From Salinisphaera japonica YTM-1 (lineage in GTDB: Bacteria > Pseudomonadota > Gammaproteobacteria > Nevskiales > Salinisphaeraceae), in the NCBI RefSeq assembly GCF_003788585.1, contig NZ_AYKG01000020.1, forward strand, positions 1 to 50,918: a stretch of 50,918 bases of DNA, given 5' to 3'. Made by a program: the position numbers and the translations under genes. Each line of letters opens with the position of its first letter. Position 1 is the first letter of the stretch. The notes under the pieces were generated by a model. The model had not been told where the DNA came from. It made no database searches and was given only the letters and a program-made list of their open reading frames with translations. Of this stretch, positions 12,289-50,918 are shown one piece after another.

Positions 12289-12568
12289 GGGCCTGTTGCC
12301 GTTTCATGCGAGCGCCGCGTTGGAGACCGCAAATCGTGTCCTGCAAGGCGCGAGTCGCCGCATCGTGGCGTGCCACGATCAAGACTCGTAACGCCGCAGG
12401 GCGCGATTTGCGGCCCAACCCTTCGGGACAAGCGCGCTGAAATTAACGACACGTCGGCAATACAGCGTTCTAGCCCACTAGCGCAGAATGACTGCGCGGC
12501 GTGGGCTACGCCTCGTCTTGCCGCAAAACAGCGCTTGGCGCGGGCTCGTATGAAACGGCAACAGGCCC
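12289..12568 (+). mobile_element. MITE-like element, copy 1 (complete)
   Basis: A 280-bp non-coding element. Its termini are 25-bp inverted repeats (12289-12313 and 12544-12568; outer part GGGCCTGTTGCCGTTTCAT) with one mismatch. It is flanked by TA on both sides (12287-12288, 12569-12570), as expected for an IS630/mariner-type TA duplication. Internally an inverted repeat TTTGCGGC (12407-12414) pairs with GCCGCAAA (12520-12527), and there are local hairpins ATCGTGGC/GCCACGAT (12362-12379) and TAGCCCAC/GTGGGCTA enclosing GCGCAG/CTGCGC (about 12472-12507). It encodes no protein, so it would have to be mobilised by a transposase elsewhere. It lies between two convergent genes. Confidence 0.8.
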
Positions 12569-12604
12569 TAGCTCGCCCATCGACTCACAGTCGCTGAGCA
12601 GATG

Positions 12605-12633
12605 CCAACCCGAGCCGCTGCGGCCCGGGTTGG
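12605..12633. repeat. GC-rich hairpin in the glcF-perM gap
   Basis: CCAACCCG (12605-12612) pairs with CGGGTTGG (12626-12633), with an inner GCCGC/GCGGC stem. No T-run follows on either strand; a terminator function is possible but not shown. Confidence 0.45.
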
Positions 12634-12783
12634 ATTGTGCCTGCTTGATCTTGCGCAGCACGGGTGTAGGCAAATCGAAACGATAGCCGGGCGGTTTCAA
12701 GGCAACATTAAATCGCCTGCCGTGAATATCGAGTCTCGCATCCAGCTGGCAATCTCAACGTTCCGCCAAGCCCACATCGGCGT

Positions 12784-12825
12784 AATCTGCGTCCATCTGC
12801 GTTTACCCCTGAAAGAACGAAGCCA
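12784..12825 (-). repeat. foldback repeat, inverted half-unit
   Basis: Reads AATCTGCGTCCATCTGCG and then GAAAGAACGAAGCC, which is the reverse complement of the GGCTTCGTTCTTTC leader of the 35.2-kb array (35232-35245). It pairs with the forward half at 12139-12170, and the MITE-like element lies between them. Confidence 0.65.
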
Positions 12826-12899
12826 AGAAAGCAGTGGCGCCCTGATGCCGTATCTCCTGATCGGCAAACCCGTTATTTGCGTCAGTACGGCCCCGAGGG

Positions 12900-14030
12900 C
12901 TACGGCGTTGTGCCAGACGTCTCGTCCGGCATGGCCGCGCCTATGGCCGTGCCCTGTCTCGGCCAGGCGTTGATGACGGCATGAACCAGTGTGGCCAGGG
13001 GAATTGCGAAGAACACGCCCCAGAACCCCCAGATACCGCCAAAGAACAACACGGCCGTGATGATCGCGACCGGGTGCAGGTTGACAGCTTCCGAGAACAG
13101 AATCGGCACCAGCACGTTGCCGTCGGCCATCTGCAACACGGTATAGGCCACCAGTACCGTCAGGGTTTCAGTTTCCATGCCCCACTGGGCATATGCCACG
13201 AGCATGACCGGAATCGTCATGCCAAAGGCGCCCACGTAAGGTACGAGGACCGAAAACCCCACCAGGGCTGATAACAACATCGCGTAATTCAGCCCCAGGG
13301 CCCAGAACACCAGATAAGCCGCGATCCATACGATGAGAATTTCCAGCGCCTTGCCACGGATATAGTTGCCGAGCTGGACGTTGACCTCGTCCCAGACACG
13401 GCGCAGCAACGCGCCGTTCTTCGGCACGAAGCCACCACACCAACGCATCAACAGGCGCTTGTCGCGGAGCATGAAGAACACCATCAACGGCACCAGCACC
13501 ATATAGACCGTGAGATACAGCAGGCCGGCACCGACCATCAATGACCGGCTGACCAATGCCTGACGCCATTCTCCGAAATCGATCGACATACTGCTGACCA
13601 GCCCGTTGATCTGTCCTCGGGTGATCAGCGAGGGATACTGGGCCGGCAGGCTGCGGATCCAGTCCTGGCTGCGATGCACGAGACCCGGCAATTCCTGTAT
13701 TACCTGGCCAGCCTGGCGGGTCAAGAGCGGCAACAACGCGAAACTGACCCAGACCACGGCGAGTATCAACATCACGGCCATCAGTGCCGCACCCAGACTG
13801 CGGGGCACGTGCCAGCGCTCGAGTCGTTCAACCGGGGCATCGCATAGATAGGCAATGACGAGTGCTGCCAGCACCGGCGTGACAAGCTGGCCCGCAAACA
13901 GCACCAACGCCAGGCCGGCCAGCAGGATGAGGATCAGCGAGACAAGCTGCGGATCACTGGCATACCGTACAAACCAGGCACGAAAAACATTCATTGAAGA
14001 AACATGTTGAGAAGAGGACAGGCCAGTCAT
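12900..14030 (-). CDS. perM: AI-2E/PerM family membrane protein
   Basis: Polytopic inner-membrane protein of about 376 residues with hydrophobic segments around LVSLILILLAGLALVLFAG, VTPVLAALVIAYL, AALMAVMLILAVVWVSFALL, a middle block including YLTVYMVLVPLMVFFML, and later paired helices (VWIAAYLVFWALGLNYAMLLSALVGF). This is the AI-2E/UPF0118 family; PerM substrates are not settled. I prefer the ATG at 14030, which has AGGA eight bases upstream, over the open-frame start at 14087 or the ATG at 13994. It is divergent from bepA, the arrangement also seen for perM and bepA in E. coli. Confidence 0.9.
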   Translation of the reverse strand: MTGLSSSQHVSSMNVFRAWFVRYASDPQLVSLILILLAGLALVLFAGQLVTPVLAALVIAYLCDAPVERLERWHVPRSLGAALMAVMLILAVVWVSFALLPLLTRQAGQVIQELPGLVHRSQDWIRSLPAQYPSLITRGQINGLVSSMSIDFGEWRQALVSRSLMVGAGLLYLTVYMVLVPLMVFFMLRDKRLLMRWCGGFVPKNGALLRRVWDEVNVQLGNYIRGKALEILIVWIAAYLVFWALGLNYAMLLSALVGFSVLVPYVGAFGMTIPVMLVAYAQWGMETETLTVLVAYTVLQMADGNVLVPILFSEAVNLHPVAIITAVLFFGGIWGFWGVFFAIPLATLVHAVINAWPRQGTAIGAAMPDETSGTTP

Positions 14031-14149
14031 GGCCGTATCCTGCCCGATCTGCCGGGCGCTTACGAGCGCTGCGCCCACTCCGATCACCTGTTCGCCGCAT
14101 GCCCGGGAATCGCGGTAGTCTGTAACTCTTCGCGGGAGCGCGCTTAACC

Positions 14150-15649
14150 ATGAAAACGCTTGTTCGAACCGCCGGATGGATCGCAGGCGCGGCCTTGATC
14201 GCAGGCCTGGGTAGTGCGTGGGTACCGGCCTCGGCCGAAGGCTATAATCTGCCCGATCTCGGCCAGCCGGCTGATACCGCCATGTCGCCCGCCGAGGAAA
14301 AAAAACTCGGCGCCCAGGTGGTCACCCAGCTGCGCTCTCAGGATCGGATCATCGAGGATCCCGAGCTCAACGAATATCTCGCCGAGGTCGGGCATCGGCT
14401 GTTACAGGCCACGAATCGACCTTCGCATGACGTACAGTTCTATGTCATCGATACCGGTGATATCAACGCCTTCGCCCTGCCCGGCGGCTATATCGGCGTG
14501 AACGCCGGCCTCATCATGGCCACCAAGACCGAAAGCGAGCTGGCCAGCGTGCTCGCCCACGAGCTGGCACACGTTACCCAGCGCCATATTGCACGCCAGA
14601 TGGCGGACAGCAAGGGCGACGCCATCGCGACCATGGCCACAGCACTTGTGGCCGCAATCGCCGGCGCATCGGCCGGCGCCGGGCAGGCCGCCTCGGCGGC
14701 GATCATGGGCGGTATGAGCCATCTGGGCATGCAACAGATCTCGTATACGCGCACACACGAATACGAGGCCGATCGGGTGGGGATACATACCCTGGCCGAC
14801 GCCGGCTACGATGCGCATGCCATGTCGCGCTTTTTTGGCACCCTGCAACGCCAGTCCGATCTGTATGGACGACAGCCGCCCCAGATCCTGTTAAGTCACC
14901 CGGTCAGCTCCACGCGTATGGCCGAAGCCGAGGCCCGCGCGGCCGGTTACCCCGACCGGGCCGCGCACACCAATCCCGAATATGCGTACATGAAGGCGCG
15001 CGTACGCATGCTTACGGCTAACAGCCCGAATCAAATGCGCGATTATTTCGCTCGGGAACGCGCCGAGCACGACAGCCCGGATCTGGACTATGGCTATGCA
15101 CTGGGCCTGATCCGTACCAGCAACGAACGCGCGGCCGTGGATCTATTGGCGGCCGGACAAAAGACCCATCCGGACATCGTGGCCTGGCCCCTGGCTCGAG
15201 CCGAGGCCTGGTCACAGGCCGGGGTCTATGACAAGGCTAACGAGATCCTCGAGGCGGCCAGCAAGCGATTTCCCAAAGACGAAGCCGTCGCCCTGGCGCT
15301 GGCACGTAACCGCTTTGATCGCGGCGACTATCGCAGCCTGCGTAACCAGCTGATCGCCGATCGCCGGCTGCTGGATACCTACCCAAGCGCACAGCGCCTG
15401 CTGGCCGAGGCAGCAGCCAAGACCGACGACTACGGCGAGGCGTATTATCGCCAGGCCCGTTACTTCGCCATGATCGGCGATTACCCGCAGGCGATCAATC
15501 AGCTGCGCACCGCGCTTCAGACTGCTGACCTCGACCAATACAATCAGGAGCGTTTAAGCGCGTTGCGTAATCAGATGGTCTCGGCCTGTCATGCGGCCTG
15601 GTCACCCGAGAAGTGCGAACGCGCCGTGGCCCAGAACGCGGACTATTGA
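14150..15649 (+). CDS. bepA: BepA-like M48 periplasmic metalloprotease/chaperone
   Basis: Periplasmic zinc protease of 499 residues involved in quality control of LptD and outer-membrane biogenesis. It has an N-terminal signal peptide ending near SAWVPASA. The zinc motif HELAH is at 137-141, with Glu138 catalytic, and the third ligand is Glu204 in HEYEADRVG. A C-terminal tetratricopeptide-rich region (about 290-490) is expected to bind the Bam complex, matching BepA/YfgC rather than LoiP. A MITE-like element begins only 17 bases after its stop, leaving little room for any other terminator. Confidence 0.94.
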   Translation: MKTLVRTAGWIAGAALIAGLGSAWVPASAEGYNLPDLGQPADTAMSPAEEKKLGAQVVTQLRSQDRIIEDPELNEYLAEVGHRLLQATNRPSHDVQFYVIDTGDINAFALPGGYIGVNAGLIMATKTESELASVLAHELAHVTQRHIARQMADSKGDAIATMATALVAAIAGASAGAGQAASAAIMGGMSHLGMQQISYTRTHEYEADRVGIHTLADAGYDAHAMSRFFGTLQRQSDLYGRQPPQILLSHPVSSTRMAEAEARAAGYPDRAAHTNPEYAYMKARVRMLTANSPNQMRDYFARERAEHDSPDLDYGYALGLIRTSNERAAVDLLAAGQKTHPDIVAWPLARAEAWSQAGVYDKANEILEAASKRFPKDEAVALALARNRFDRGDYRSLRNQLIADRRLLDTYPSAQRLLAEAAAKTDDYGEAYYRQARYFAMIGDYPQAINQLRTALQTADLDQYNQERLSALRNQMVSACHAAWSPEKCERAVAQNADY

Positions 15650-15665
15650 GCCGGCACTTGAGCCA

Positions 15666-15972
15666 GGGCCTGTTGCCGTCTCGTGCGAGCGCCGCTTTTG
15701 TCGAGAGCCCGCCGTGTGTCGTGAACGGCGCGAGTCACAGCGTCGTGGTATCCCACGGTCAAGACTTGCAACGCGCCAGGGGCCCATCTTCAATTTCATG
15801 GGCGGCCCAACCTTTCGGGACAAGCGCCCTGAAACCAACGAGACGTCGGCAATACAGCGTTCTAGGCAATTTGCACAGGACGACACGCTAGGTGAGCTAG
15901 GCCTCGTCTTGCCGCCCATAGCCACAACCATGCAGCGCTTGGCGCGGACTCGTATGAATGGGTAGCAGACCC
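15666..15972 (+). mobile_element. MITE-like element, copy 2 (complete, diverged)
   Basis: A 307-bp copy in the same orientation as copy 1. The left terminus GGGCCTGTTGCCGTCTCGTG is well kept; the right one is degraded (ACTCGTATGAATGGGTAGC then AGACCC). A TA follows the right end (15973-15974) but the left flank is CA. The inner inverted repeat is ATGGGCGGC (15798-15806) with GCCGCCCAT (15911-15919), different in sequence from copy 1 but still fully paired. It fills the space between the convergent bepA and lapB genes, and its last base and the adjacent TA form the lapB stop codon. Confidence 0.78.
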
Positions 15973-17162
15973 TAAACCGCGCGAGACGGCCCGATATCGC
16001 TCAGCGGGCGTACTTGGTCCCAACGCCGGCAGTTCGGGCACTGCCAGTGTAGATAACGACTGGCAAAGCCACATGCGTGACAGGCATGGCTGGGCGCCGT
16101 CGCGATGATACGTGAGAGCGCCAGCCGTAGACTGTCCAGTGGCCCGCTCAAGCGGGTCTTGCCATGTTGTGCCGAATATTCGAGCAGCGCATGAAAAGCC
16201 AGCCAGTTCGCCTCACTTTGTAGATAGCGTGACAGGTGGGCGATCGCCTCATCCGTACGCCCGGCCTCGTTGAGCGCCCGTGCTCTGGCAATCTCAGCCG
16301 CCGGCGACGTCGAACGGGCCGACATCTGATCGAAAAACCGCAAGAGTCCTTCTGAATCGGCCAGTCCGCGATGTGCCTCGATCACCGGGGCAACGATTTC
16401 ACTGCCAAGCCTCGGATCCTGTATCAACACGCGCCGATAGGCTCGGACCGCTTCGTTGTAGGCCCCGGCCTGGAGATGCCAGCGTCCTCGCAGCAAGCCG
16501 GCCCGAGCGCAGTTCGGCGCCGCGCCTTCAGCTGTTGCCAGCGCATCGAAGGCAGTATCAACCTGGCCTGAATTAAAAGCTTCTTCAGCCAGTTCGCAGT
16601 GATACTGACCGATCAGCGTCGCCGAGTTCTCGTCTGTCTCGGTGAACAACCTACCGGCGACTTCGATCGCGCTCTGCCACTCTCGGGTCTGCTCGTGAAT
16701 ACCCAGCAGGCGAGACAAGCTTTGTCGGCCATGAACATCGTCATCAGCCAGATCGCCGAACAGTCGCTCGGCCCGATCGAGCACGCCGGCTCGCAGATAA
16801 TCACAGGCCAGCTCAAAACGGGCGTGGTTACGCTGCCGATTGGACAGCTGAGGCCGCGTGATCAGGTTCTGGTGCACCTTGAGCGCGCGATCGATCTCAC
16901 CCTGGCGTCGAAACAGGTTGCCCAATGCCAAATGGGTCTCGACCGTGTCGTCGTCGACGGCCAGCACGCGCGAGAACGTTTCGATGGCGCGCTCGGCATC
17001 ATCATTGACCAGATGCGTGATCCCGCTCACGTAATCGCGGGTAACAGCGGATTCGGTCTCGCATGCACTGTCGCTGGTGCGCTCGGCTCGTGCGCGCGCC
17101 CACCAGCCCGAAGCTGCCGCGACTGGCAACAACAGGACCAGCCAGACAATCGGATCAGGCAT
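15972..17162 (-). CDS. lapB: LapB (YciM), regulator of lipopolysaccharide synthesis
   Basis: Membrane-anchored TPR protein of 396 residues that, in E. coli, links FtsH to LpxC turnover and coordinates LPS assembly. An N-terminal membrane segment (PIVWLVLLLPVAAASGWWARAR) is followed by RDYVSGITHLVND and tandem TPRs (for example VETHLALGNLFRRQGEIDRALKVH). A C-terminal rubredoxin-like knuckle CHACGF...HWQCPNCRRW supplies four cysteines. The ATG at 17162 overlaps the lapA stop by eight bases; an upstream GTG at 17177 is a weaker option. The TAG stop is built from the edge of MITE-like copy 2, and the last few residues (DIGPSRAV) may have been altered by that insertion. Confidence 0.95.
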   Translation of the reverse strand: MPDPIVWLVLLLPVAAASGWWARARAERTSDSACETESAVTRDYVSGITHLVNDDAERAIETFSRVLAVDDDTVETHLALGNLFRRQGEIDRALKVHQNLITRPQLSNRQRNHARFELACDYLRAGVLDRAERLFGDLADDDVHGRQSLSRLLGIHEQTREWQSAIEVAGRLFTETDENSATLIGQYHCELAEEAFNSGQVDTAFDALATAEGAAPNCARAGLLRGRWHLQAGAYNEAVRAYRRVLIQDPRLGSEIVAPVIEAHRGLADSEGLLRFFDQMSARSTSPAAEIARARALNEAGRTDEAIAHLSRYLQSEANWLAFHALLEYSAQHGKTRLSGPLDSLRLALSRIIATAPSHACHACGFASRYLHWQCPNCRRWDQVRPLSDIGPSRAV

Positions 17163-17445
17163 TGCCGGCGTGTGCACTCCGCAAACTGTCGATCTCGGCT
17201 TCAGCGTCCCTGAGCTTGCGCTTGGACGACGACAGCCGCGTCTTCAAGCGAATCACGCGCAGCGTAAACAGGACCACAGCGATCAGCAGGCCAAGCACGA
17301 ACGCCGCTGCCAGCAGTACCACCAGGGGGGCTTGTGTTCGAACCACAAGCAGATCGATCGGCGCACTCTGGAAATTCAGATAACCGAACAGCAGCCCGAT
17401 GACGGTAGCGACAAAGACAACGAGAATACGCAGCAAGCTCAACAT
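17155..17445 (-). CDS. lapA: LapA, small inner-membrane partner of LapB
   Basis: Protein of 96 residues with two transmembrane helices (about 2-21 and 40-62) connected by NFQSAPIDLLVVRTQAPL, and a basic coiled C-terminal tail (VIRLKTRLSSSKRKLRDAEAEIDSL). This is the LapA/YciS (DUF1049) family, cotranscribed with lapB and involved in LPS assembly. It overlaps lapB by eight bases. The upstream gene is ihfB, with 112 bases between. Confidence 0.93.
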   Translation of the reverse strand: MLSLLRILVVFVATVIGLLFGYLNFQSAPIDLLVVRTQAPLVVLLAAAFVLGLLIAVVLFTLRVIRLKTRLSSSKRKLRDAEAEIDSLRSAHAGNA

Positions 17446-17557
17446 GCACCAAGATCCTGTAGACGAGGACCGCGAATGGACAGCCGACGTTGTCGCCTGG
17501 GCGGTCCGTTCGTGATCGTTGCGCTCGGCATCATATCAGCCGCGCGCGGGTCATGAT

Positions 17558-17848
17558 TCAGTCGGCAACCGCGAGATTCACGCGCTCACGCAATTCCTTG
17601 CCGGGTTTGAAATGCGAAACATATTTCGGCGGGATTTCGACCGATTCGCCGGTTTTCGGATTTCGCCCATGGCGTGCCGGGCGATGATGCACCGAAAAAC
17701 TGCCGAAGCCGCGTATTTCCACGCGCCCCCCTTCGGCCATGTGATCAATCATGCGATCGAGCAGAAGGCGAACCGCCAATTCGACGTCTCGTTGGGTCAG
17801 ATCGTCGTATTGATCGACCAGCCGCTCGATTAATTCTGATTTGGTCAT
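17558..17848 (-). CDS. ihfB: integration host factor beta subunit
   Basis: DNA-bending nucleoid protein subunit of 96 residues that pairs with IhfA. It opens [17 protein letters not shown] and carries the HU/IHF beta-arm signature [16 protein letters not shown] with the intercalating Pro in RNPKTG. The ATG at 17848 has GGGGAGAG about seven bases upstream; the frame stays open to 18022, but that part is unlike the family. The order rpsA, ihfB is conserved in gammaproteobacteria. A strong terminator-like structure lies between it and rpsA. Confidence 0.97.
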
Positions 17849-17997
17849 GCAGCGCTCTCCCCAAACGCCGTCGCGCGACAAACGTCTCGCTGACGCAGAC
17901 CCCGTGGCACGCTTCCCCCGCGTTACCGTGGCCCATAAAACAACGCCCGACGTTGGCCGATAGAGCCAGGCGCCGGGCGCGTTCTTCAAGGCTATTT

Positions 17998-18053
17998 CAA
18001 AACAAGAGATGCTTGCAAGCATCTCTCGTCTCGGGACGTGTCAAAGACACGTC
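17998..18053 (-). terminator. rpsA terminator, tandem hairpins
   Basis: On the minus strand, just after the rpsA stop, GACGTGTC/GACACGTC (18035-18053) is followed by the perfect 22-base palindrome AGAGATGCTTGCAAGCATCT... (18005-18026) and then TTGTTTTG. The second stem with its T-run is a good Rho-independent terminator; the first stem may add strength. Confidence 0.8.
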
Positions 18054-18062
18054 TCAAACCGA

Positions 18063-19742
18063 TCAACTGTCGCGATCGGCCATCTGCTCCTTGAGCAGAT
18101 CACCCAGGCTGGTGGTGCCGGTCGAGGCATCGGTATCCGCGTAATCGCGCATGGCCTGCTGCTCGTCCTTCTCTTCCTTCGCCCGGATCGACAGGCTGAT
18201 CGAACGGTTACGACGATCCACGCCGACAAAGCGTGCTTCGACGGACTCGCCCTCGGACAGCGCGGTACGGGCGTCTTCGACGCGCTCGCGGGCGATATCC
18301 GAAGCCCGGATATAACCGACGACTTCGTTGCCCAGATCCACGCTGGCACCACGGGCATCGACCGTGGCGATCGTGCCGGTGACGAGGCTGCCCTTGGGAT
18401 GATCAGCGACGAAGGAGCCCAGCGGATCGGTGGCCAGCTGCTTGATGCCCAGCGAGATCCGCTCGCGATCGGCATCGATGGCCAGCACGGCGGCTTCGAC
18501 CGAATCGCCCTTGGAATATTCGCGCACGACTTCTTCGCCGGCCTCGTTCCAGGACAGATCTGACAGATGCACCAGACCGTCGATGTTGCCCGGCAGGCCC
18601 ACGAAGATACCGAAATCGGTGATCGACTTGATCTGGCCGGAGACCGTATCGCCACGCTGATGTGCAGCGGCGAAGTCTTCCCACGGGTTGGACTGGCACT
18701 GCTTCATGCCGAGCGAGATACGACGACGCTCTTCGTCGATCTCGAGCACCATGACCTCGACTTCTTCGCCCACGGAGACGATCTGGTTCGGGTTGACGTT
18801 CTTGTTGGTCCAGTCCATCTCGGAGACGTGCACCAGGCCTTCCACGCCTTCCTCGATCTCGACGAAGGAGCCGTAGTCGGTGATGTTGGTGACGTTGCCG
18901 AACAGACGCGTGTGCTCGGGATAACGACGCGCGATATCGACCCACGGGTCATCGCCCAGCTGTTTGAGGCCCAGCGAGACACGGGTGCGCTCACGATCGA
19001 ACTTGAGCACCTTGACCTCGATCTCCGAGCCCACGGTGACCACGTCAGACGGGTCCTTGATGCGCTTCCAGGACATGTCGGTGATGTGCAGCAGGCCGTC
19101 GATGCCACCCAGGTCCACGAACGCGCCGTAGTCCACCAGGTTCTTGACGATACCCTTGAGCACGATGCCTTCCTGGAGCGTGTCCAGCAGCTGCTTGCGC
19201 TCTTCGCTGTACTCTTCCTTGAGCACGTCGCGACGCGAGACAACCACGTTGTTGCGCAGGCGATCCAGCTTGATGACACGGAACTCGAGCGGCTTGCCCT
19301 CGAGATAGGTCGTGTCGCGCACCGGGCGTACGTCCACCAGCGAGCCGGGCAGGAACGCACGAATGTTGCCGACGTCCACGGTGTAGCCGCCCTTGACCTT
19401 GCCACTGATGTGGCCGACCACGGACTCGCTGTTCTCGTAGGCCTCGGTGAGGAAGTCCCAGGTGCGGATGCGCTGGGCTTTTTCCTTCGACAGGCGCGTG
19501 GCACCGAAACCGTCTTCCACGGCTTCCAGTGCGACTTCGACCTTGTCGCCCTCGACAACGGTCAGTTCGCCGTTCTCGTCGTAGAATTCATCGACGGGGA
19601 TCACGCCTTCGGACTTCAGGCCCGCGTCGACGATCACGACATCGTTCTTTACTTCCAGCACCTCAGCGTTGATGAGGGAACCGGGCTGCATGGTGCGACC
19701 TTGCAGACTCTGCTCGAATAGCTCGGCGAAACTTTCAGACAT
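18063..19742 (-). CDS. rpsA: 30S ribosomal protein S1
   Basis: RNA-binding ribosomal protein of 559 residues needed to load mRNAs with structured or weak initiation regions. Six S1 (OB-fold) domains are visible from repeats such as [31 protein letters not shown], each with GxFVxL-like and GLxHxSD motifs. The ATG at 19742 ([12 protein letters not shown]) is the family start. Like E. coli rpsA it has no good Shine-Dalgarno sequence next to the start (CCCTCAC precedes it), consistent with autoregulated initiation. It lies 114 bases after cmk, as usual. Confidence 0.98.
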
Positions 19743-19792
19743 GTGAGGGAAAAATCCTGCGGCGCGACAACTGACACGCCATCGGTTGTTGG

Positions 19793-19829
19793 AAAAACAA
19801 AAACACCGCCCAAGGCATTGCACCCTGGC
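19793..19829 (-). terminator. possible terminator/attenuator between cmk and rpsA
   Basis: On the minus strand an imperfect stem (GCCAGGG with CCTTGGGC, about 19808-19829) is followed by GGTGTTTTTGTTTTT (19793-19807). It could end some cmk-operon transcripts before rpsA. The stem is imperfect, so the call is tentative. Confidence 0.42.
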
Positions 19830-19856
19830 CGGACCCGGTGGACCCGCGCGCCGCGA

Positions 19857-20552
19857 TCAGTCGACGAGCCAGCCCTTGGCCACCACGAGATCACGCACCT
19901 TGCGCGCACTCGCAGTCACACTATCGCCCGTGGTATCAATGACATAGGCATCGTCCGCCGGTTTCAGCGGCGAGGCCTTGCGCGAGGCATCGCGCGTATC
20001 ACGATCCACGATTTCGCGATATATCCGCGAGAGACTAGCAGGCTCGCCCTGGGCCGACAACTGTTCGTGGCGCCGACGAGCCCGCTCCTCGGCCGAGGCG
20101 GTCACGAATATCTTCAGATCGGCCTCGGGGAAGATCATGGTGCCCATGTCACGGCCATCGGCGATCAGCCCCGGGGCCGCGGCAAACGTACGCTGGCGCG
20201 CCAACAACGCCTCGCGCACGGCGGGAATCGTCGCCCAGCGCGAGGCTGCCTTGGCAATCTCGTCCTGGCGAATGGTTTGGGTGACGTTCTCACCTGCCAG
20301 CTCGATACGCTGACCGTCGTCGCCGGCGATGAAACGCACGTCCAAGGCCCGGGCCTGATCTGCTGCCCGCTGGATATCGTCGTCGATGTCGACCGACAGG
20401 TTTTCACGGAGCGCGCCAAGGCCCACCAGCCGATAGAGCGCCCCGCTATCGAGAAGCGACCAGCCAAGCCAGGTCGAAAGTTTGCCCGCCAGCGTGCCCT
20501 TGCCGGCACCACCTGGCCCGTCCAACGTGATGACCGGCACCTGTGCACTCAT
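19857..20552 (-). CDS. cmk: cytidylate kinase
   Basis: Phosphorylates CMP and dCMP with ATP. The 231-residue enzyme has the P-loop GPGGAGKGT at 12-20, and the CMP-binding parts LDSGALYR, DGRDMGTMIFPEA and ERARRRHEQL. I chose the ATG at 20552, which overlaps the aroA stop as ATGA; the open frame continues to 20924 inside aroA. Order aroA-cmk-rpsA is conserved. Confidence 0.97.
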   Translation of the reverse strand: MSAQVPVITLDGPGGAGKGTLAGKLSTWLGWSLLDSGALYRLVGLGALRENLSVDIDDDIQRAADQARALDVRFIAGDDGQRIELAGENVTQTIRQDEIAKAASRWATIPAVREALLARQRTFAAAPGLIADGRDMGTMIFPEADLKIFVTASAEERARRRHEQLSAQGEPASLSRIYREIVDRDTRDASRKASPLKPADDAYVIDTTGDSVTASARKVRDLVVAKGWLVD

Positions 20553-21877
20553 CCTGCACCCTCCGCCACTTGGATCTGCAGCCCGGCCTCTTCGGCCAGG
20601 GCCACGAAGTTGGGAAATGAAGTCGCGACATAGTCGCAGTCGTCGATACTGATCGGCGCATTGGCACGCAGAGCGGCCATGGCAAAGGCCATGGCGATGC
20701 GATGATCCTCGTGCGAGGCGATCGCCCCGCCGGTGAAGGCAGCACCCGTGGGCCGGCCGTGTATCACGATGCCGTCCTCGGTTTCCTGGCAATCCACGCC
20801 AAGCGTGCGCAGCCCTTCGGCCATGACGGCCAGGCGGTCGCACTCCTTGACACGCAGCTCGCCGGCACCGGTGACCCGCGTGGTGCCCTGGGCACAGGCC
20901 GCGGCGATGAACAACGCCGGACACTCATCGATGGCCAGCGCCACCAGATCACCGCCGATATCGGCGGCCTGCAGGCCGCCGCCACGGATATGGATATCGG
21001 CGACCGGTTCGCCCGCTGCTTCGCGCTCGTTATCCAGGCGGATATCAGCCTGCATGGCCTGCAGCACATCGATCACGCCGCGGCGCGTTGGATTGATACC
21101 CACCGCTTCGAGAACCAGGTCACTACCGGGGCTGATCGCGGCCCCGACCAGAAAGAACGCGGCCGATGACAGGTCCGCAGGCACGGAGACATCCGTGGCT
21201 ACCAGCCGCTGCCCGCCGGCGACCGATACGCTGCGGCCCTGGCGCTCGACGTTGACGCCGAAGCCGACCAGCATGCGCTCGGTATGATCGCGACTCACGC
21301 CCGGCTCGTGTACCTGTGTTGTGCCGTGGGCATACAGCCCGGCCAACAGCACACAGGATTTGATCTGGGCACTGGCCACGGGGGCAGCGTATTCGGTGGC
21401 CGAAAGCCGATGCCCCCCGCTGATATGAAGCGGCGCGCGACCGCCATCGGCGCTGGCAATCGCCGCGCCCATACGCGACAACGGTTCGATCACACGCTGC
21501 ATGGGGCGGCGTGAAAGACTGGCGTCTCCGGTGAGCGTGCTGTCAAAGGCCTGCCCCGCCATGATGCCGCACAGAAGCCGCATCGAGGTGCCGGAGTTGC
21601 CCAGATCCAGCGCGGCGTCGGGGCGCATCAGGCCGTGCAGACCGCGGCCCTCGATCACCCGTATATCGCCGTCCAGATGATGAGCAACGCCCATCGCCTC
21701 GAACGCGGTCAGCGTGGCCAGACAATCCGCACTTTCCAGAAAACCGGTGATACGGCTCGTGCCCTCGGCCAGGGCAGCGAACATGATCGCACGGTGCGAG
21801 ACCGATTTATCGCCCGGCACGCCAAGCGAGCCACGCAGCTGACCGCCCGGGGCGACATCGAACCGACGCCCGCTCAC
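20549..21877 (-). CDS. aroA: 3-phosphoshikimate 1-carboxyvinyltransferase (EPSP synthase)
   Basis: Sixth step of the shikimate pathway: transfers enolpyruvyl from PEP to shikimate 3-phosphate. It has 442 residues with the SHKP-binding GDKSVSHRA near 22-30, LDLGNSGTSMRLL, ASLSRRPMQRV, ASAQIKS and SRDHTERML. The last three resemble class II EPSP synthases (Bacillus/Agrobacterium CP4 type) more than the E. coli class I form. The usual RVKESDR reads RVKECDR and the catalytic Asp loop reads IDECPAL, so two Cys substitutions flank the active site. It overlaps tyrA upstream and cmk downstream by four bases each. Confidence 0.97.
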   Translation of the reverse strand: MSGRRFDVAPGGQLRGSLGVPGDKSVSHRAIMFAALAEGTSRITGFLESADCLATLTAFEAMGVAHHLDGDIRVIEGRGLHGLMRPDAALDLGNSGTSMRLLCGIMAGQAFDSTLTGDASLSRRPMQRVIEPLSRMGAAIASADGGRAPLHISGGHRLSATEYAAPVASAQIKSCVLLAGLYAHGTTQVHEPGVSRDHTERMLVGFGVNVERQGRSVSVAGGQRLVATDVSVPADLSSAAFFLVGAAISPGSDLVLEAVGINPTRRGVIDVLQAMQADIRLDNEREAAGEPVADIHIRGGGLQAADIGGDLVALAIDECPALFIAAACAQGTTRVTGAGELRVKECDRLAVMAEGLRTLGVDCQETEDGIVIHGRPTGAAFTGGAIASHEDHRIAMAFAMAALRANAPISIDDCDYVATSFPNFVALAEEAGLQIQVAEGAG

Positions 21878-40470: not shown

Positions 40471-40478
40471 GCCGAGGC

Positions 40479-40964: not shown

Positions 40965-44423
<3,459 letters not shown>

Positions 44424-44475
44424 ACGCTCGTTCGAAAAATGTATTGGGCCGACCCGCCGACCGCGCGTTTCAACG

Positions 44476-47400
44476 TTACCCGGCCATGCCAAGCGCGGTA
44501 TCGATATCCACGCTGACCAGCCGGGACACGCCCGGCTCGGCCATGGTCACACCGTGTAACTGCTCGGTCAGCTCCATGGTCAGCTTATTATGCGTGATGA
44601 CGATGAACTGCACCTTGTCCGACATGGTGCGCACCAGATCACAGAATCGTGCCACGTTGGCGTCGTCCAGCGGCGCATCGATTTCATCGAGCATACAAAA
44701 CGGCGCCGGGTTGAGCTCGAACAGCGCGAACAACAACGCGACCGCCGTCAGTGTCTTCTCGCCCCCTGAGAGCATCTGGATCGAGGCGTTTCGCTTGCCG
44801 GGTGGGCGGGCCATCACCCGTACGCCGGTGGTCAGCCAGTCCTGCTCGGTGAGCGTGAGTGCGGCCTCCCCGCCGCCGAAAAGCTCGGGGAACATCGCTG
44901 AAAAACGGTCGTTGATCTGTTCGTAGGTGTGCTTGAAGCGCTGGCGGGTTTCGCGATCGATGCGCGCGATGGCGGCCTCCAGTGTTTCCAGCGCCTCGAC
45001 CAGATCCTCGTGCTGGGCAGCCAGATAGCGCTCGCGCTCACCGGCCTCTTGATATTCATCGATAGCCGCCAGGTTGATGGCGCCGAGGCGCGCGATCTGT
45101 TTTTCCACCGTCTCGATGGCCGCCTGCCACTGCCCAGGTACGGCCGCGCCCGGCAGCTGGTCAATGATCGGCGCCGGGGCCGCGCCGATCTCGCGCAGCT
45201 GCTCCACCACGCCGCTGCGTCGCGTGGTCGCGGCCTCGAGCGCCAGACGGGCGTCGTTCTGACGCTCGCGCACGGCCTCCAGTGCCTGTTCGGCGCGCAT
45301 CTCGTCATCGCGCGCCGCTTCAAGCCTTCGTTCTTGTGCCTTGGCGGTCTCGCGTGCCTGACGCAGGGCTGTTTCGGCCTCTTCGCGCTCGGTCTTGGCG
45401 GCCGTGAGGTCCTGGGCCGTATAGCTTTCGCTGGCCGCTGCCGGCGTGGCAGCGTCGAAGGCCGCAATTTCGTCGTTTAGTGCAGCGACGGTGTCGCGGC
45501 TGTCGGCAATTCGTGTGGCCACTGCCTCGCGCTGGGTTGCGTGCTGCGCGCGCCGGGCTTCGAGCTGCTCGATACGACGGCGTTTCTCGCCCGCCGTATG
45601 CCGGGCCCTGTCGCGCACGCGTCGCGTCTCGGCCAGCGTTGCCCGGGCCTGGCTGCGCTCGGCCTCGAAGCGCTCGGCTGCCTCGCGCAAGTTGTCGATC
45701 TGGGTCTGGGTCTGGTCCCGCGTGGTTTTCAGCGTGGCCAACTGGTCGTCCAGCTCGGCGATTTCGGTCTCGAGCTCGGCGACGCGGCGCCGGGTCTCGG
45801 CCGCGCGCAGGGTGTCGCCCTCGAGCTCGGCCTCGGCGGTTTCGATCTTGCGCCGACGTGCGCCCAGCCGCTGCTCCAAAGTCTGGCGCGCCCGCGTGGC
45901 GTCACCGGCCTGTTCACGCTCGCGCTCGGCACTCTCGCCGGTTTCATCCCGCTGCCTGCCGGCGTCGGCGATCACGGTGTCGAGCGCCGCGATCCGCTGC
46001 TCTCGCGCATAGGCGCTGGGCGCATCCGTATCGTCGCCCGGCGGCGGCGTGGCCAGCCACCCCGGCCCAAGCAATACCCCGGCTTCGGTCACGATTCGCT
46101 GATGGGCGGCCAGCTGCGGCAGCGCCGCGCGCGCCGTATCGATATCACCGGCAACAAAGATATCGGCCGCGGCTCGCATGACGACCGCCGGGCCGGCGAT
46201 ACCGTGCGCCAGCGGCACCAGGCCGTCGGCCGGGGCCACGATGTCGTCACCCGCTGGCTCGGCCGTGCCGGCGGCCAGCGTCAAACGCTCGCCCGGCCAT
46301 GCCGTGGCGTGTGCACCGTCCGCGGGCGTGGCGATTTCAAACGCGGCCAGCCAGTCACCGAGTGCGGCCTTGGCCAGGCTTTCATAGCCGGACTCGAAGC
46401 GGATCCGCCGTGCCAGGCCGGCCGGTGCCCCCAGCCCCTGCGCGTCAAACCAGGCCTGCAGGGCGGTATCGTCTTCGCGCAGCAGGGCCTGTTGCATGCG
46501 GCGTGCGGCCGCCCGCTCGGCCTCGGCTGCGGCAATCTCGCGTCGCGCATCGGCCAGCGTCTGTTCGGCTTCGGCTGCCGCTGCGATATGACGACGCTCC
46601 TGCGCCTGCGCGACCTCGTGCTCGTCTGTTTCACTGGCCTGGGTGTCCTTGAGGGCGCGAAGCGCTTCCCGCTGAGCGTCGAGATCAGCGTCAGCCTCGG
46701 TGTCCAGGTCTCGATGTTCCTGTATGCGCTTGTCACGGCGCATCGTCAGTTTCTCGAGCTCGGCCTCGGCGTAGCGGGCCCGCGTGCGCTCGGCTTCGAG
46801 CTGCTGGATCGGGTTGGTCGTCTGCTGTGACAGCTCGTCCCAGATGCGTTCGGCCTCATCAGCAGCCTGTTCTGCGGCCTGCCGGTCGTGACGGGCCGTT
46901 TCGTGCTCGTGGCCGGCCTGTTTCAGATGATCCTGATCGCGGGCGATCTCGCGATCGAGTGTGCCAAGCTGGGTTTCATCGGCGTCGCGGCTGCGCGCGG
47001 CACGATCCAGCCGGTCGACAAGCGACTGGCGCTCCTTGTCGAGGCGCTCGGCCAGCGTCTTGGCGTGTGCCAGGGCCTGCTCGATGCGCCCCACGCTGGC
47101 CTGGGCATCGTAGTAGACCGCCTGGCTGGCCTGGACAGCCTCACCGGCGGCGTGCTGGTCGTGCCCGGCCTGCTCACGGGCCGCGAGCGCGTCACGGCGC
47201 GTCGTGGTCGCCGCGCGCAGCTCATGCTCGACCTGGCCGAGATGCGACTGGGCCGCGTCGACCGCTCGCGCTTCATCCTGCCACTTAAGTGCCAGCAGTT
47301 CGGTCCTGAGCTGGCGTTCGCGGGCCTTGAGCGTCTTGTATTTTTCGGCGCTGTCGGCCTGGCGTTTCAGTGTCGTCAGGCGCTCGGTGATCTCACCGAT

Positions 47401-47994
47401 CAGATCGTTGAGCCGGTCGAGGTTCTCGCGGGTGTGGCGAATCCGGCTTTCGGTTTCGCGACGACGCGCCTTGTATTTTGAAATGCCGGCCGCTTCTTCC
47501 AGCACCTGGCGCATATCCTCGGGCCGGGCCTCGATCAAGCGATTCACCGCGCCTTGTTCGATGACCGCATAATTGCTGCGCCCGCCCAGCCCGGTGCCCA
47601 GAAACAGATCGACCACATCGCGCCGGCGTGCGCGGGTATTGTTGATCGTGTACTTGGAGGCCCCGTCGCGCGTGAGCTCACGACGCACGCTGATCTCGGC
47701 GTAGCTGGCCCATTCGCCGCCGAGCTTGCCCTGGCTGTTATCAAAACGCAGCTCGACCGAGGCCCGGCCGACCGGCTTTCGTGCGTTCGAGCCGTTGAAG
47801 ATGACGTCCTCAAGCGCTTCGCCGCGCAGGTGGCGTGCATTGGACTCACCGGTCACCCAGCGCACGGCATCGATCACGTTGGATTTGCCACAGCCGTTGG
47901 GCCCGACCACACCGGTCAGGTTCGAGGCCAGGCTCAACGTCGTCGGATCGACAAAGGATTTGAAGCCGGCGAGTTTGATGTGCGTCAAGCGCAT
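44476..47994 (-). CDS. smc: chromosome segregation protein SMC
   Basis: Condensin ATPase of 1172 residues. Walker [10 protein letters not shown] near 31-39, two long coiled coils separated by a hinge at about 500-650 (region rich in Gly/Ala and few heptads), and a C-terminal head with signature [19 protein letters not shown] and Walker [15 protein letters not shown]. The ATG at 47994 ([14 protein letters not shown]) is the family start. Works with ScpA and ScpB encoded at 36.6-38.0 kb. Head of the smc-zipA-ligA operon. Confidence 0.98.
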
Positions 47995-48156
47995 GATGAA
48001 AGTCGCGATCGAAGGCCTGCATCCAACGCCCGCCGGGCGCCGGATGGTCAATCGGCTAGTGTAACCTATGCGCTGTCGACGCCGGCTCCGCGGCCACGCA
48101 CATGCCGGCGTGATCTGTTTCTGTTTTGTTCAACCGTCTGGCCACGGCCATCGATT
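47995..48156. promoter_or_regulatory. divergent smc / queF region
   Basis: 162 bases, the only place for the smc operon and queF promoters. TACACT on the minus strand (about 48059) is a weak -10 candidate for smc. I see no preQ1 riboswitch fold ahead of queF. Confidence 0.3.
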
Positions 48157-48546
48157 ATGTCTACTGCCCCCAATCGCGATCTCGAAACCTTTGACAACCC
48201 GTCGCCCGAGCGCGACTACACGATTCGAATGCGCATTCCGGAGTTCACCTGCCTGTGCCCGAAGACCGGCCAGCCGGATTTCGCCACGCTGCATCTGGCC
48301 TACGTGCCGAACGAGCGATGCGTCGAGCTGAAGTCGCTCAAGCTCTATATCTGGTCGTTTCGCGATGTCGGCGCGTTTCATGAGGCCGTCACCAACCAGA
48401 TGCTGGCCGATCTGGTGGCCGCGACCGCACCGCGGTTCATGCGTCTCACCGCCGAGTTCTGGGTTCGTGGCGGTATCGACACGTCGGTGATCGCAGAACG
48501 CCGCGCCGAGGGCTGGCAGCCACCGACGCCGGTCGTGTTGCCCTAG
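48157..48546 (+). CDS. queF: NADPH-dependent 7-cyano-7-deazaguanine reductase QueF (short form)
   Basis: Reduces preQ0 to preQ1 in queuosine synthesis. A 129-residue single-domain type I QueF, unlike the double-length form of E. coli. The catalytic Cys34 and Asp41 are in [36 protein letters not shown] is the QueF motif. The ATG at 48157 begins [13 protein letters not shown]; the frame runs far upstream over smc but is not coding there. A strong terminator follows. Confidence 0.96.
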
Positions 48547-48581
48547 ATCACGTCTAGATACCACCTCGTCATGGGATGAAG

Positions 48582-48609
48582 AAGCCGGCCGCAAGCAGCC
48601 GGCTTTTTT
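48582..48609 (+). terminator. Rho-independent terminator of queF
   Basis: AAGCCGGC (48582-48589), an 8-base loop, GCCGGCTT (48598-48605) with a run of six T at 48604-48609. Also near the 3' end of the opposing lipoprotein gene (stop at 48628), for which the other strand offers a poorer CTTCTTC tail. Confidence 0.9.
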
Positions 48610-48627
48610 ATGCAAGCGAGGCTGGCG

Positions 48628-49341
48628 TTATTGCAGCAAGGCAACGCTGTCGCCGACCACGCGTACGCGCGTGCCGCTGCTCAGCCCGTTTGCGGTATCC
48701 AGCGTGACCTGGCGCGAGCCGCCGGCGTCCATCGCCACGTTGACCTGATAGACCGTGGTCTTGCGAATCTTCTTCTCGGCATAGTTGCCCGCGTAGGCAC
48801 CGCCCAGGGTGCCGGCGATCGCCGCGATGGTCTTGCCCGTACCGCCGCCGATCTGGCTGCCCAGCGCACCACCGGCCACGCCGCCAGCGATGGCGCCGAC
48901 GCCCGAGCCGCTGTCGACGTTCTGGCGTACCGGCGTAATCGAGCTCACGGTGCCACAGTTGTCGCATACGGCCGGTTTGGGGTCGGCCTCGGCCCGCTGC
49001 TGGGCCGGCTCCGGCGATGTTTTCGGCGTCGACGTCTGTGGTGGCGGCGATGCGGGCTTGCGGCTATCCGAGGTGGACGCCTGCTTGCCGGCGTTGTTGG
49101 CCGACTCGGCTGCTGCGGCCTTGTCGTCCTGGCGCTCGGCCTTGGCCTCGGACTTCGCGCTGGCCAGGTTTTGCTGTGCCTGTTCGAGGTTCTGATTGGC
49201 CTGTTCGAGCTGTTGCTCGGCCGAGTCGACCGAGGTGGCATCGGTCTCGGCGTTGTTCTGACCATCCGAGCAACCGGCAACGAGTACCGTTAAACAAAGC
49301 GCGCTGATGGCGGCGAGTCGAGTCGTGGTGTGCAGGGTCAT
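48628..49341 (-). CDS. glycine-zipper 2TM lipoprotein
   Basis: 237-residue lipoprotein. Lipobox LVAGC at about residue 24 ends the signal peptide. Then come a Gln/Glu/Ala coiled coil (AEQQLEQANQNLEQAQQNLASAK), a Pro/Ser/Ala linker, a CDNCGTV knuckle, and a glycine-zipper double helix GVGAIAGGVAGGALGSQIGGGTG...AIAGTLGGAYAGNYAEKKI, as in SlyB/YcfJ-like outer-membrane lipoproteins. A C-terminal region QVNVAMDAGGSRQVTLDT follows. Likely envelope integrity; the exact role is not known. Confidence 0.85.
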   Translation of the reverse strand: MTLHTTTRLAAISALCLTVLVAGCSDGQNNAETDATSVDSAEQQLEQANQNLEQAQQNLASAKSEAKAERQDDKAAAAESANNAGKQASTSDSRKPASPPPQTSTPKTSPEPAQQRAEADPKPAVCDNCGTVSSITPVRQNVDSGSGVGAIAGGVAGGALGSQIGGGTGKTIAAIAGTLGGAYAGNYAEKKIRKTTVYQVNVAMDAGGSRQVTLDTANGLSSGTRVRVVGDSVALLQ

Positions 49342-49401
49342 CTAAAGCGCTCCGTGATCGATACAATGGCGGCAGAATAAGAAGGCGATGCCGAACACCG
49401 A

Positions 49402-50181
49402 ATGAATCCCGTTACCGAGCTCTCTGCCGGGCCGCGTTGCCTGGCTCGCGGTTTTTCCATGCTCACCCAGCCCGGCCTGCGACGTTATGTCGTGATTCCG
49501 GTCCTGGTGAACATCGTGCTCATCGTGGGCCTGGTAAGCCTGCTGGGCTGGCAGGTGAACGACTGGTTGAACGCCTGGCTCTCCGGGCTGCCGGACTGGC
49601 TGGCCTGGCTCGACGATGTACTCTGGTGGATCGTCATGGCCCTGGTGACCCTGGCGTTCTGTTATTTCTTCACGCTACTGGCCAACCTGATTGCCAGCCC
49701 TTTCAACGGGATACTGTCCTCAAGGGTGGAGCAGCTGATCACTGGACGCACGCCGCAGACGCGCATGAGCCTGGCAGGTGAAATGTGGGACGGCGTAGCC
49801 GGCGAGGTGCGCCGGCTACGCTATTACGCGGGGCGCGCCCTGATGCTGGCCTTGGTCAGTCTGGTTCTTCTGTTCATTCCCGTGGCCAACCTGGCGATCG
49901 CGCCCCTCTGGTTCATCTTTGGCGCATACATGCTGGCCTTCGAGTATATGGATGGCCCGATGGGCAATCGCGGCTGGGCTTTCGAAGCCAAGCTGGCACA
50001 TCTAGATACCCATCGCATGCGCCATCTCGGCTTTGGCAGCCTGGTGACGCTGATGACCGCCATCCCGTTGGCAAATCTGGTCGTGATGCCGGCCGCGGTT
50101 ATCGGCGCCACCCTGCTCTATCTGGATACCATAGGCCCGCTCGATACCTCGCTCGGCCCAACGCCAAACCGTGAACGTTGA
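49402..50181 (+). CDS. cysZ: CysZ-type sulfate transporter (EI24 family)
   Basis: Inner-membrane protein of 259 residues with hydrophobic segments near VVIPVLVNIVLIVGLVSLL, VLWWIVMALVTLAFCYFFTLL, ALMLALVSLVLLFIPVANLAIAP and VTLMTAIPLANLVVMPAAVIGA. LANLIASPFNGILSSRVEQLI is the CysZ family block. It transports sulfate for cysteine synthesis in E. coli. Its ATG overlaps the TGA of a five-codon frame (ATG at 49388) as ATGA. Confidence 0.92.
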   Translation: MNPVTELSAGPRCLARGFSMLTQPGLRRYVVIPVLVNIVLIVGLVSLLGWQVNDWLNAWLSGLPDWLAWLDDVLWWIVMALVTLAFCYFFTLLANLIASPFNGILSSRVEQLITGRTPQTRMSLAGEMWDGVAGEVRRLRYYAGRALMLALVSLVLLFIPVANLAIAPLWFIFGAYMLAFEYMDGPMGNRGWAFEAKLAHLDTHRMRHLGFGSLVTLMTAIPLANLVVMPAAVIGATLLYLDTIGPLDTSLGPTPNRER

Positions 50182-50270
50182 GCCCGACACTCGGTTGCGC
50201 TCAACCCAAATATTGCGCAACCGGCATATTTTTTGCTAAAGCTACGCGCTGCTCCAGATGCGAGAACACC
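50182..50270 (+). promoter_or_regulatory. dksA upstream region
   Basis: 89 AT-enriched bases with ATATTGCGCAACCGGCATATTTTTT just ahead of dksA. TTGCGC with a 17-base spacer to CTAAAG is a poor promoter match, so the element is not assigned. Only GAGA precedes the dksA ATG. Confidence 0.3.
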
Positions 50271-50714
50271 ATGTCGACCACTGAAAAATCCCAGAAACTC
50301 GATGCGCCTCAAGAGTTTACGCCTTATGTCCCAGCCGAGGACGAGGAGTATATGAATGAGGCACAGCGCAACCACTTCCGCGGACTGCTCGCGCAGTGGA
50401 AGCGTGAGCTGATGGAAGAAGTCGATCGCACCATGCATCACATGAAGGACGAGGCAGCCAATTTCCCCGACCCGACGGACCGTGCCAGCCAGGAGTCGGA
50501 GTTCAGCCTCGAGCTACGCACACGCGATCGCGAGCGAAAACTGATCCGCAAGATCGACCAGGCCATTGGCCGGGTAGACCGGGACGACTATGGCTTCTGC
50601 GATACCTGCGGTCTGGAAATCGGTATCCGTCGGCTGGAAGCACGCCCGACCGCCACGCTGTGTGTCGATTGCAAGAGCCTCGACGAGATCCGTGAGCGTC
50701 AACTCGGCCGCTAA
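50271..50714 (+). CDS. dksA: RNA polymerase-binding transcription factor DksA
   Basis: 147-residue regulator that acts in the secondary channel of RNA polymerase with ppGpp. Coiled coil with the acidic tip DPTDRASQE (Asp70, Ala72), and a four-Cys zinc finger C110, C113, C131, C134 in CDTCGLEIG...CVDC, so it is the zinc-binding form. The ATG at 50271 (MSTTEKSQ) gives the usual length; the frame runs up to 50178 over the cysZ end. A MITE-like copy starts 28 bases after its stop. Confidence 0.97.
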   Translation: MSTTEKSQKLDAPQEFTPYVPAEDEEYMNEAQRNHFRGLLAQWKRELMEEVDRTMHHMKDEAANFPDPTDRASQESEFSLELRTRDRERKLIRKIDQAIGRVDRDDYGFCDTCGLEIGIRRLEARPTATLCVDCKSLDEIRERQLGR

Positions 50715-50741
50715 ACGGTCCGTGTTGATAGCGCGTGACTA

Positions 50742-50918
50742 GGGCCTGTTGCCGTTTCATGCGAGCCCGCGCCAAGCGCTCCCTGAAATTGACTATGGGC
50801 GGCAAGACGAGGCGTAGCCCGGGCCGCGCAGTCACTCTGCGCAAGAGGGCTAGAACACTGTATTGCCGACGTGTCGTTAATTTCAGGGCGCTTGTCCCGA
50901 AGGGTTGGGCCGCCCATA
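50742..50918 (-). mobile_element. MITE-like element, copy 3 (cut by the window end)
   Basis: Opens with GGGCCTGTTGCCGTTTCATG after a TA (50740-50741), and the interior is the reverse complement of copies 1 and 2, so it is inverted. It is close to copy 1 (GTATTGCCGACGTGTCGTTA and GCTTGTCCCGAAGGGTTGGG are shared). The inner inverted repeat TATGGGCGGC (50794-50803) with GCCGCCCATA (50909-50918) is intact. The other end lies beyond the window. Confidence 0.78.

Follow-up and report, generated by a model that had tools for sequence, protein, structure and literature searches.

A folded interior recurs in small, apparently IS5-mobilised elements of Salinisphaera and other Pseudomonadota

Three gene-free repeats lie in the stretch of DNA analysed here, positions 1 to 50,918 of contig NZ_AYKG01000020.1 of Salinisphaera japonica YTM-1 (50,918 nucleotides; hereafter the window). 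They resemble miniature inverted-repeat transposable elements (MITEs), and the question they raise is whether anything inside such an element is under selection. The usual view holds that MITEs are decayed insertion sequences (ISs) with an unimportant interior. In the elements described below it is the interior that is conserved – in shape more than in sequence, and across a sample of the phylum – while most of the end sequence varies. We give a probability of about one half to the reading that these are non-autonomous elements, mobilised by IS5-family transposases, whose interior is a structured module selected as a single-stranded fold. Its basis, drawn from sequence, comprises IS5 ends shared for two end types, the TA flanks, the geometry of the fold, paired substitution and the orientation of the arms.

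The complete copy in the window, copy 1, has the features of a MITE: it is short (280 bp), contains no gene and is bounded by 25-bp terminal inverted repeats, 96% complementary, with junctions C-TA..TA-G. The whole element is predicted to fold into a terminal stem of ~30 bp, an arm of ~100 nt, a 7-nt mini-hairpin and an inverted second arm of ~100 nt. In copy 1 the terminal stem is prolonged by CCGCG/CGCGG, after which come arm 1, the mini-hairpin CCC-TTC-GGG and arm 2; the interior folds as RNA at -122.6 kcal/mol (z -7.3), and DNA parameters give z -7.2. The parts of copy 1 and the two other copies are as follows (the covariance model is that introduced below).

12287..12288, no strand: TA target duplication, left side of copy 1 (C-TA)
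12289..12568, plus strand: copy 1, complete element of 280 bp; interior matches the covariance model at 147.5 bits (model 1-218)
12289..12313, plus strand: left terminal inverted repeat of copy 1; counting the TA, its first 19 bases agree with those of the L105-type IS at 18
12315..12319, plus strand: inner part of the terminal stem of copy 1, CCGCG, paired with 12539-12543 in the predicted fold
12320..12418, plus strand: arm 1 of copy 1, a 99-nt hairpin with internal motif GCAAGGCG...AACGCC (predicted fold and consensus)
12419..12427, plus strand: central mini-hairpin of copy 1, CCC-TTC-GGG (predicted fold)
12429..12537, minus strand: arm 2 of copy 1, a predicted hairpin inverted relative to arm 1; 5'-side allele mismatched to the 3' side
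12544..12568, minus strand: right terminal inverted repeat of copy 1
12569..12570, no strand: TA target duplication, right side of copy 1 (TA-G)
15666..15972, plus strand: copy 2, degenerate; covariance-model match of 30.4 bits
50742..50918, minus strand: copy 3, truncated where the contig, and with it the window, ends; partial model match of 30.8 bits

Evidence that the fold is conserved comes firstly from other genera of the order. A nucleotide search with one copy gave matches in 52 of 85 genomes and 14 of 21 genera, counts that include the copy's own genus (14 genomes). Twenty order-level loci were fetched; the outer repeat was clean in 13, of which 11 could be parsed into arms. Their ends are almost wholly different past the first bases, yet complementary, and their geometry is fixed: arm 1 is 100 nt in all 11 and arm 2 is 99-102 nt, around CCTTCGG or CCTCCGG. 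These 11 interiors were aligned with seven from Salinisphaera (alignment A1), three rows being turned so that like arms aligned; 24 of 117 sequences whose fold failed to parse into two arms were left out. In A1 91.9% of cells are paired, as against 75.7% when shuffled and 35-41% when slid; the covariation score is 0.440 versus 0.151 (standard deviation 0.009), and 49 of 77 pairs have changed on both sides. Since the structure of A1 was derived from its own rows, the cleaner test takes the fold of one Salinisphaera copy and imposes it on the 11 rows from other genera. Under this imposed fold 724 of 948 cells (76.4%) are Watson-Crick pairs, with 28.5-30.5% in slid controls, and 48 of 87 pairs have changed on both sides (slid, 15-22). 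Agreement varies by helix, from 91.6% in the long stem of arm 1 through 57.7% in the upper part of arm 2 to 43.2% in a 4-pair helix of arm 1, the worst. The figures for paired change are counts, mostly set against slid or shuffled controls.

A first-pass annotation of the window, made from its letters, had claimed a fold preserved by paired substitution; this claim is supported, more strongly and more widely than was proposed, the support extending to elements from the order, class and phylum. Searching with a covariance model built on A1 gave matches in 87 of 274 genomes of the class (71 of 221 genera) and, in a sample of the phylum, in 56 of 200 genomes, 35 of them from outside the class. 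When 48 elements – 47 from the class and phylum searches and one, L223, from the order – were folded freely, two arms formed in 44, with an inter-arm piece of exactly CC-NNN-GG in 29 of the 44. A stricter test of architecture (arms of 94-106 nt) was passed by 38 of 48 real elements and by 2 of 480 with shuffled interiors, and the median z for the 48 is -8.4 (10 shuffles per element). Complementarity extends at least 20 bp past the model in 37 of the 48, giving elements of 264-281 bp; the other 11 have no such extension. A blastn search also found matches on plasmids of Azotobacter, Pseudomonas and Halomonas (four plasmid records for each of two elements, none for a third). Going by the genus, the class is Gammaproteobacteria and the phylum Pseudomonadota, with which these plasmid hosts agree. 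On a P. aeruginosa plasmid the element sits between two genes, and no annotated feature lies beneath the plasmid copies seen, in a gene table made up largely of protein genes. Phage records searched with one element gave no match.

The two arms follow a single plan, the reverse complement of arm 2 being built like arm 1: above a 5-bp foot and a mostly unpaired position 6 stand ~16 bp whose sequence is largely free; these are followed by a conserved stretch, GCAAGGCG...CAACGC, in which AA is unpaired, and the arm is closed by an apical hairpin. Of 55 parsed elements, 29 have an arm 1 of exactly 100 nt and 42 one of 99-101 nt, while arm 2 measures 99-101 nt in 37. Position tables exclude arms of any length other than 100; the non-redundant arms of that length (less than 80% identical) number 15 for arm 1 and 16 for arm 2. 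Lower-stem pairs in non-redundant arms are Watson-Crick in 83.2% (arm 1) and 89.0% (arm 2) of cases, against 28-42% when slid; 19 of 21 and 17 of 21 have changed on both sides (slid, 9-15 and 7-12), and 13 of 21 in each arm set show three or more Watson-Crick types (slid, 1-7 and 0-6). Within these covarying stems certain bases stay unpaired: the AA at positions 26-27 in 14 of 15 arms 1 and 14 of 16 arms 2, and position 6, whose base is variable, in 10 of 15 and 13 of 16. The smaller hairpins of the first-pass annotation proved to be the tips of arm 1 (ATCGTGGC/GCCACGAT) and arm 2 (GCGCAG/CTGCGC); they covary across genera, with both-side changes in 6 of 8 pairs of the arm 1 tip (helix 4) and 6 of 6 of the arm 2 tip (helix 7).

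A further issue is the strand on which the arms fold. When each non-redundant arm is read in its own direction, G-T mismatches outnumber A-C mismatches by 25:5 and 19:7, with slid ratios, over all arms, of 412:415 and 360:290. The predicted RNA fold energy is lower than that of the reverse complement in 34 of 38 arms 1 and 45 of 51 arms 2 (non-redundant). For Salinisphaera arms RNA parameters favour the own direction in 17 of 20 and 10 of 12 (p 0.06), and DNA parameters favour it in 19 of 20 and 11 of 12; with G-U pairs forbidden the preference of Salinisphaera arm 1 is weaker (15 of 20, p 0.08). This preference, a property of predicted folds, points to a single-stranded structure, with which RNA and DNA are alike compatible. 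An RNA-only reading based on an early G-T excess was abandoned, because the structure had been predicted on the plus strand, which biased the count, and because DNA parameters agree too. As the arms are inverted and each folds better in its own direction, either strand carries one properly oriented hairpin.

Several side observations concern individual loci. L214:110-479 is an order-level element of 370 bp with ~100 nt extra between its outer repeats relative to its relatives, and L220 looks like an element overlooked by the repeat finder. In L215, L222, L224, L176 and L187 the loop of the mini-hairpin is inverted relative to the arms (CCCGAAGGG against CCCTTCGGG). Five order-level loci compared with Rfam gave three matches, all far under the gathering score; a scan of the window gave nothing at that score.

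What moves these elements is suggested by their ends. Relatives within the genus carry ISs of ~860 bp, which we take to belong to the IS427 group. Their ends read, for example, TAGGGCGTGTTGCCGTTTC, and in others CCG is replaced by AGG or ATG; the junctions of five of them are C-TA..TA-G in four and C-TA..TA-A in one. The MITE end TAGGGCCTGTTGCCGTTTC differs from TAGGGCGTGTTGCCGTTTC at one base in 19, and there are also MITE ends that have AGG or ATG. The transposase tested from an IS with matching ends belongs to the IS5 family (NCBIfam NF033580, 266.9 bits against a cut-off of 110); DUF4096 and DDE_Tnp_1 domains were found in the same IS, and relatives of this transposase, some of them only fragments, occur in 8 of the 14 genus genomes. 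A search of this genome for PF01609 found none. The first-pass annotation had named an IS630-type transposase as the one to look for; the partner identified here is of the IS5 family. A second pairing of ends comes from a single-contig genome, G205, with five IS copies of 811-812 bp (end TAGGGCGTGTTAACACTA) and six MITE copies read, of 269-270 bp (end TAGGGCCTGTTAACACTA): the terminal 18 bases of IS and MITE differ at one position. The one IS copy tested has DUF4096 and DDE_Tnp_1 in two frames, and five of the six MITE copies, at different sites, are 99-100% identical. Many kinds of end occur across the class and phylum, among them TAGGGCCTGTTAACACTA, TAGGGAAACGCTGATTAATG, GTACTCCGTCCAGGC and CTAGTACTCTTTCAAGG. 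On this comparison of ends the elements are most likely moved by IS5-family transposases.

Within the genus the family is large. Searched with the terminal repeat, much as the first-pass annotation had suggested, with up to 3 mismatches allowed, this 3.26-Mb genome holds 80 forward and 59 reverse terminal-repeat sites (139 in all; a reversed-pattern control gave 0), and all 14 genomes of the genus match at E <= 0.001. The single-contig genome G009 alone has 69 matches to the MITE. We extracted 106 copies of 227-312 bp, 45 of them from this genome; two, lacking an anchor, could not be assigned an orientation, leaving 104 oriented copies. TA flanks both sides in 64 of the 106 copies and CTA..TAG is found in 37, which makes CTAG, with duplication of TA, the probable usual target. 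Several contigs of this genome, the window's included, end ~60-180 bp from the outer end of an element: the assembly probably breaks at the repeat, and copy counts may therefore be low. Two adjacent copies, one incomplete, lie at L041:1347-1774, and at L046:1508-1774 a copy seems to split a gene that by eye resembles a sodium:solute symporter on both flanks. At three places in G009 (C1:438754, 1541477 and 1766143; L115-L117) there are three identical one-sided ends, GGGCCTGTTGCCGTTTCACGCGACG. They have no clear second end or core, L115 offering just a poor coreless candidate; the open reading frame lists of L115 and L117, read by eye, contain no recognisable transposase. These ends perhaps belong to another element type.

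The window copies fit this family unevenly. Shared 25-bp ends had been claimed for all three, together with an apparent TA duplication. Copy 1 bears out both, and the first 25 bp of copy 3, in the opposite orientation, are those of copy 1; the ends of copy 2 are degenerate (2 mismatches on the left, more on the right) and its left junction reads CCA then GGG, with no TA. Among the window copies only copy 1 has TA on both sides, copy 3 being cut off.

Copy lengths group near 267, 282, 295 and 309 bp because blocks are present, absent or exchanged; the copies are mosaics whose arms differ by blocks. Block variants stay paired, with CCGCAAATCG/CGATTTGCGG in some copies and CCCAAAATCTGGCCA/TGGCCAGATTTTGGG in others; in predicted folds the partner of TTTGCGG is CCGCAAA, in arm 1, and that of GCCGCAAAAC is GTTTTGCGGC, in arm 2. 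The particular inner stem that the first-pass annotation had put forward as its main covarying pair, ATGGGCGGC/GCCGCCCAT, had to be given up: the two occur together in 4 of 35 copies, 29 having a GCCGCAAAAC-type arm and 2 neither, and they are unlinked (Fisher p 0.21, 104 oriented copies). TTTGCGGC is accompanied by a GCCGCAAAAC-type arm in 47 of 50 copies. The two 5' and two 3' alleles of arm 2 are linked as pairing predicts (Fisher p 0.006; among 104 copies 4 are p-y, 14 are p-x, 1 is q-y and 68 are q-x, with the remainder uncalled). Copy 1, by its letters, is a mismatched p-x chimera in arm 2. RNAalifold, applied to a MAFFT alignment of the 104 Salinisphaera copies, recovers just the terminal stem plus some portions of the arms; misalignment of alternative blocks is the probable reason.

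Where do the elements sit? As had been claimed, copies 1 and 2 are flanked by convergent genes, and copy 3 begins 27 bp past dksA; an M48 peptidase gene lies between copies 1 and 2, its product being 63% and 60% identical to two Salinisphaera records, the only two relatives returned by the scan made with it. Convergence is not a general rule. For 47 copies with enough flank, out of 67 extracted from two genomes and judged with a simple in-house gene caller, flanking genes are in tandem at 17, divergent at 13 and convergent at 8, with coding sequence up to the element on both sides at 9; the 8 of 47 disposed of a preference for convergent genes. Coding sequence runs right up to the element in 37 of these 94 flanks, and in 22 of the 37 it runs in frame into the TA and the first G of the element, which make a TAG stop (p 0.001 against one third). 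At 19 of these 22 the opposite flank starts with TAG, probably the original stop; at 3 it does not. A stop completed by the element means that insertion leaves the protein unaltered. The last C of copy 2 completes such a TAG (15972-15974, minus strand) for a TPR/LapB-like gene, and in a related record the element starts at the stop codon, TAG, of the M48 gene.

How such an element might move and persist can be sketched as follows. IS5-family transposases acting in trans would recognise the outer ends, and insertion at CTAG-like sites would duplicate TA; elements with other end types may likewise share their ends with IS5-family elements. The interior would be selected as a single-stranded fold in which a terminal stem, two opposed arms of ~100 nt and the mini-hairpin meet at a junction that leaves few bases unpaired or none, and with inverted arms either strand could offer one correctly oriented arm, whatever the landing direction. 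The fold would act somewhat more probably in RNA than in single-stranded DNA: read-through transcripts, in Salinisphaera perhaps often entering at a stop codon, might be bound by a conserved host factor, and that binding might let the insertion be tolerated. We lean slightly toward RNA as the setting because of the 22 of 37 Salinisphaera coding flanks that run in frame into TAG.

A number of our own results weigh against this account. The 11 rows from the order came out of a nucleotide search but were retained because they could be parsed, and the class and phylum loci were found by a structure model, so that pairing was partly selected for in both. In Salinisphaera the 14 copies with mismatched arm-2 alleles (p-x) exceed the 4 matched p-y copies. 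IS partners were found for two end types only and none for the others, and an IS5-type transposase went undetected in this genome and in the single-contig genome G009. As to RNA, DNA parameters also give the orientation preference of the arms (33 of 38 and 42 of 51), which persists with G-U pairs forbidden (31 of 38 and 46 of 51); the whole interior has no strand bias (56 of 104, p 0.43), as follows from the inversion of the arms; tandem genes show no orientation bias (7 same, 10 opposite); and the excess at stop codons is absent from a small, model-free sample at class level (6 of 16).

The last points bear on an alternative that we think possible, if on balance doubtful: that the fold acts in single-stranded DNA (on the lagging strand, or in transformation or conjugation) or in an extruded cruciform, the arms serving to join the terminal repeats as a duplex and so make a better transposase substrate. 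The folding of the whole element, both arms included, agrees with this, as do a terminal stem (~27-35 bp where extended) that exceeds the IS ends, the lack of a tie to gene orientation and the matching preference under DNA parameters; the stop-codon placement in Salinisphaera is neutral. Joining ends would not, however, require the conserved upper-arm sequence, and the same-end IS copies that were read are transposase genes between short repeats, although they were not searched for arms.

Two further explanations dispense with a selected fold, and both seem to us improbable. In one there is no selection: template switching between arms homogenises the palindromes, and paired substitutions arise neutrally. 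The inverted mini-hairpin loop of some elements (TTC against GAA), the difference of arms by blocks and the near-perfect terminal stems are what such a process might leave behind. But it should also remove mismatches, and yet the AA at 26-27 and position 6 stay unpaired; conserved unpaired bases within covarying stems make template switching alone hard to sustain, and the arm length held at 99-101 nt (42 of 55 and 37 of 55) and the excess of G-T over A-C in the arm's own direction stand against it as well. In the other, for which we would give long odds, the arms are sites at which a dimeric host protein binds the double strand, and their pairing is a by-product of inverted half-sites. Units of repetitive extragenic palindromic sequences (REPs) and bacterial interspersed mosaic elements (BIMEs) do bind gyrase or IHF, and the inverted arms here have the GCAAGGCG / CAACGC motif in common; the lower stems, however, pair with free choice of sequence, which sequence-specific binding does not require.

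If the interior of these apparently IS5-mobilised elements is indeed selected as a fold, then the long-lived lineage is the passenger rather than the transposase. A broader form of this proposal, on which we are evenly divided, is a mobile folded module spread across the Pseudomonadota that would swap only its ends among many IS5-type transposases, its mirror-image arms working in either landing orientation through a conserved host factor that binds RNA or single-stranded DNA. Dozens of natural compensatory variants provide a ready system for finding out how a folded interior serves a bacterial transposon and its host, and the covariance model can be used for annotating these repeats.

A literature search, with most subscription journals outside its coverage, returned no description of this element, and the systems most like it differ in specific ways. 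MITEPsy1 of Pseudomonas syringae is also non-autonomous, with ends that resemble an IS of probable IS5 type and a duplicated target of CTAG or YTAA; it is 100 nt long with 18-nt repeats, and the accessible part of its description has no conserved fold, the term "secondary structure" being absent from that text (PMC3189936). BOX, RUP and SPRITE of pneumococcus are likewise small, interspersed and highly paired repeats; the terminal repeats of BOX and RUP pair with each other, and BOX is modular. They are, however, elements of pneumococcus, fewer in S. mitis and very rare in other streptococci, typically of less than 200 bp, and the portions of the source available speak neither of covariation or compensatory change nor of a fixed 100-7-100 geometry (PMC3049150). 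REPs and REPINs share with our elements palindromic units, alternating orientation and transposases elsewhere in the genome (PMC3116915, PMC2817692, PMC3733652, as far as these were accessible), but REPs are of 20-40 bp (PMC3733652) and are associated with tyrosine transposases (PMC2817692), whereas here arms of ~100 nt, well outside that size, lie within IS5-type terminal repeats. QMITE2 of Coxiella is, like ours, a gammaproteobacterial MITE, with a transcript predicted to fold strongly; it has direct repeats of 7-9 bp and a core of 113-145 bp, and the accessible sections of its description give no fold common to several genera (PMC10969869). As far as our searches show, what is new here is a conserved fold of fixed geometry, its spread through a sample of the phylum, and ends that change around it.

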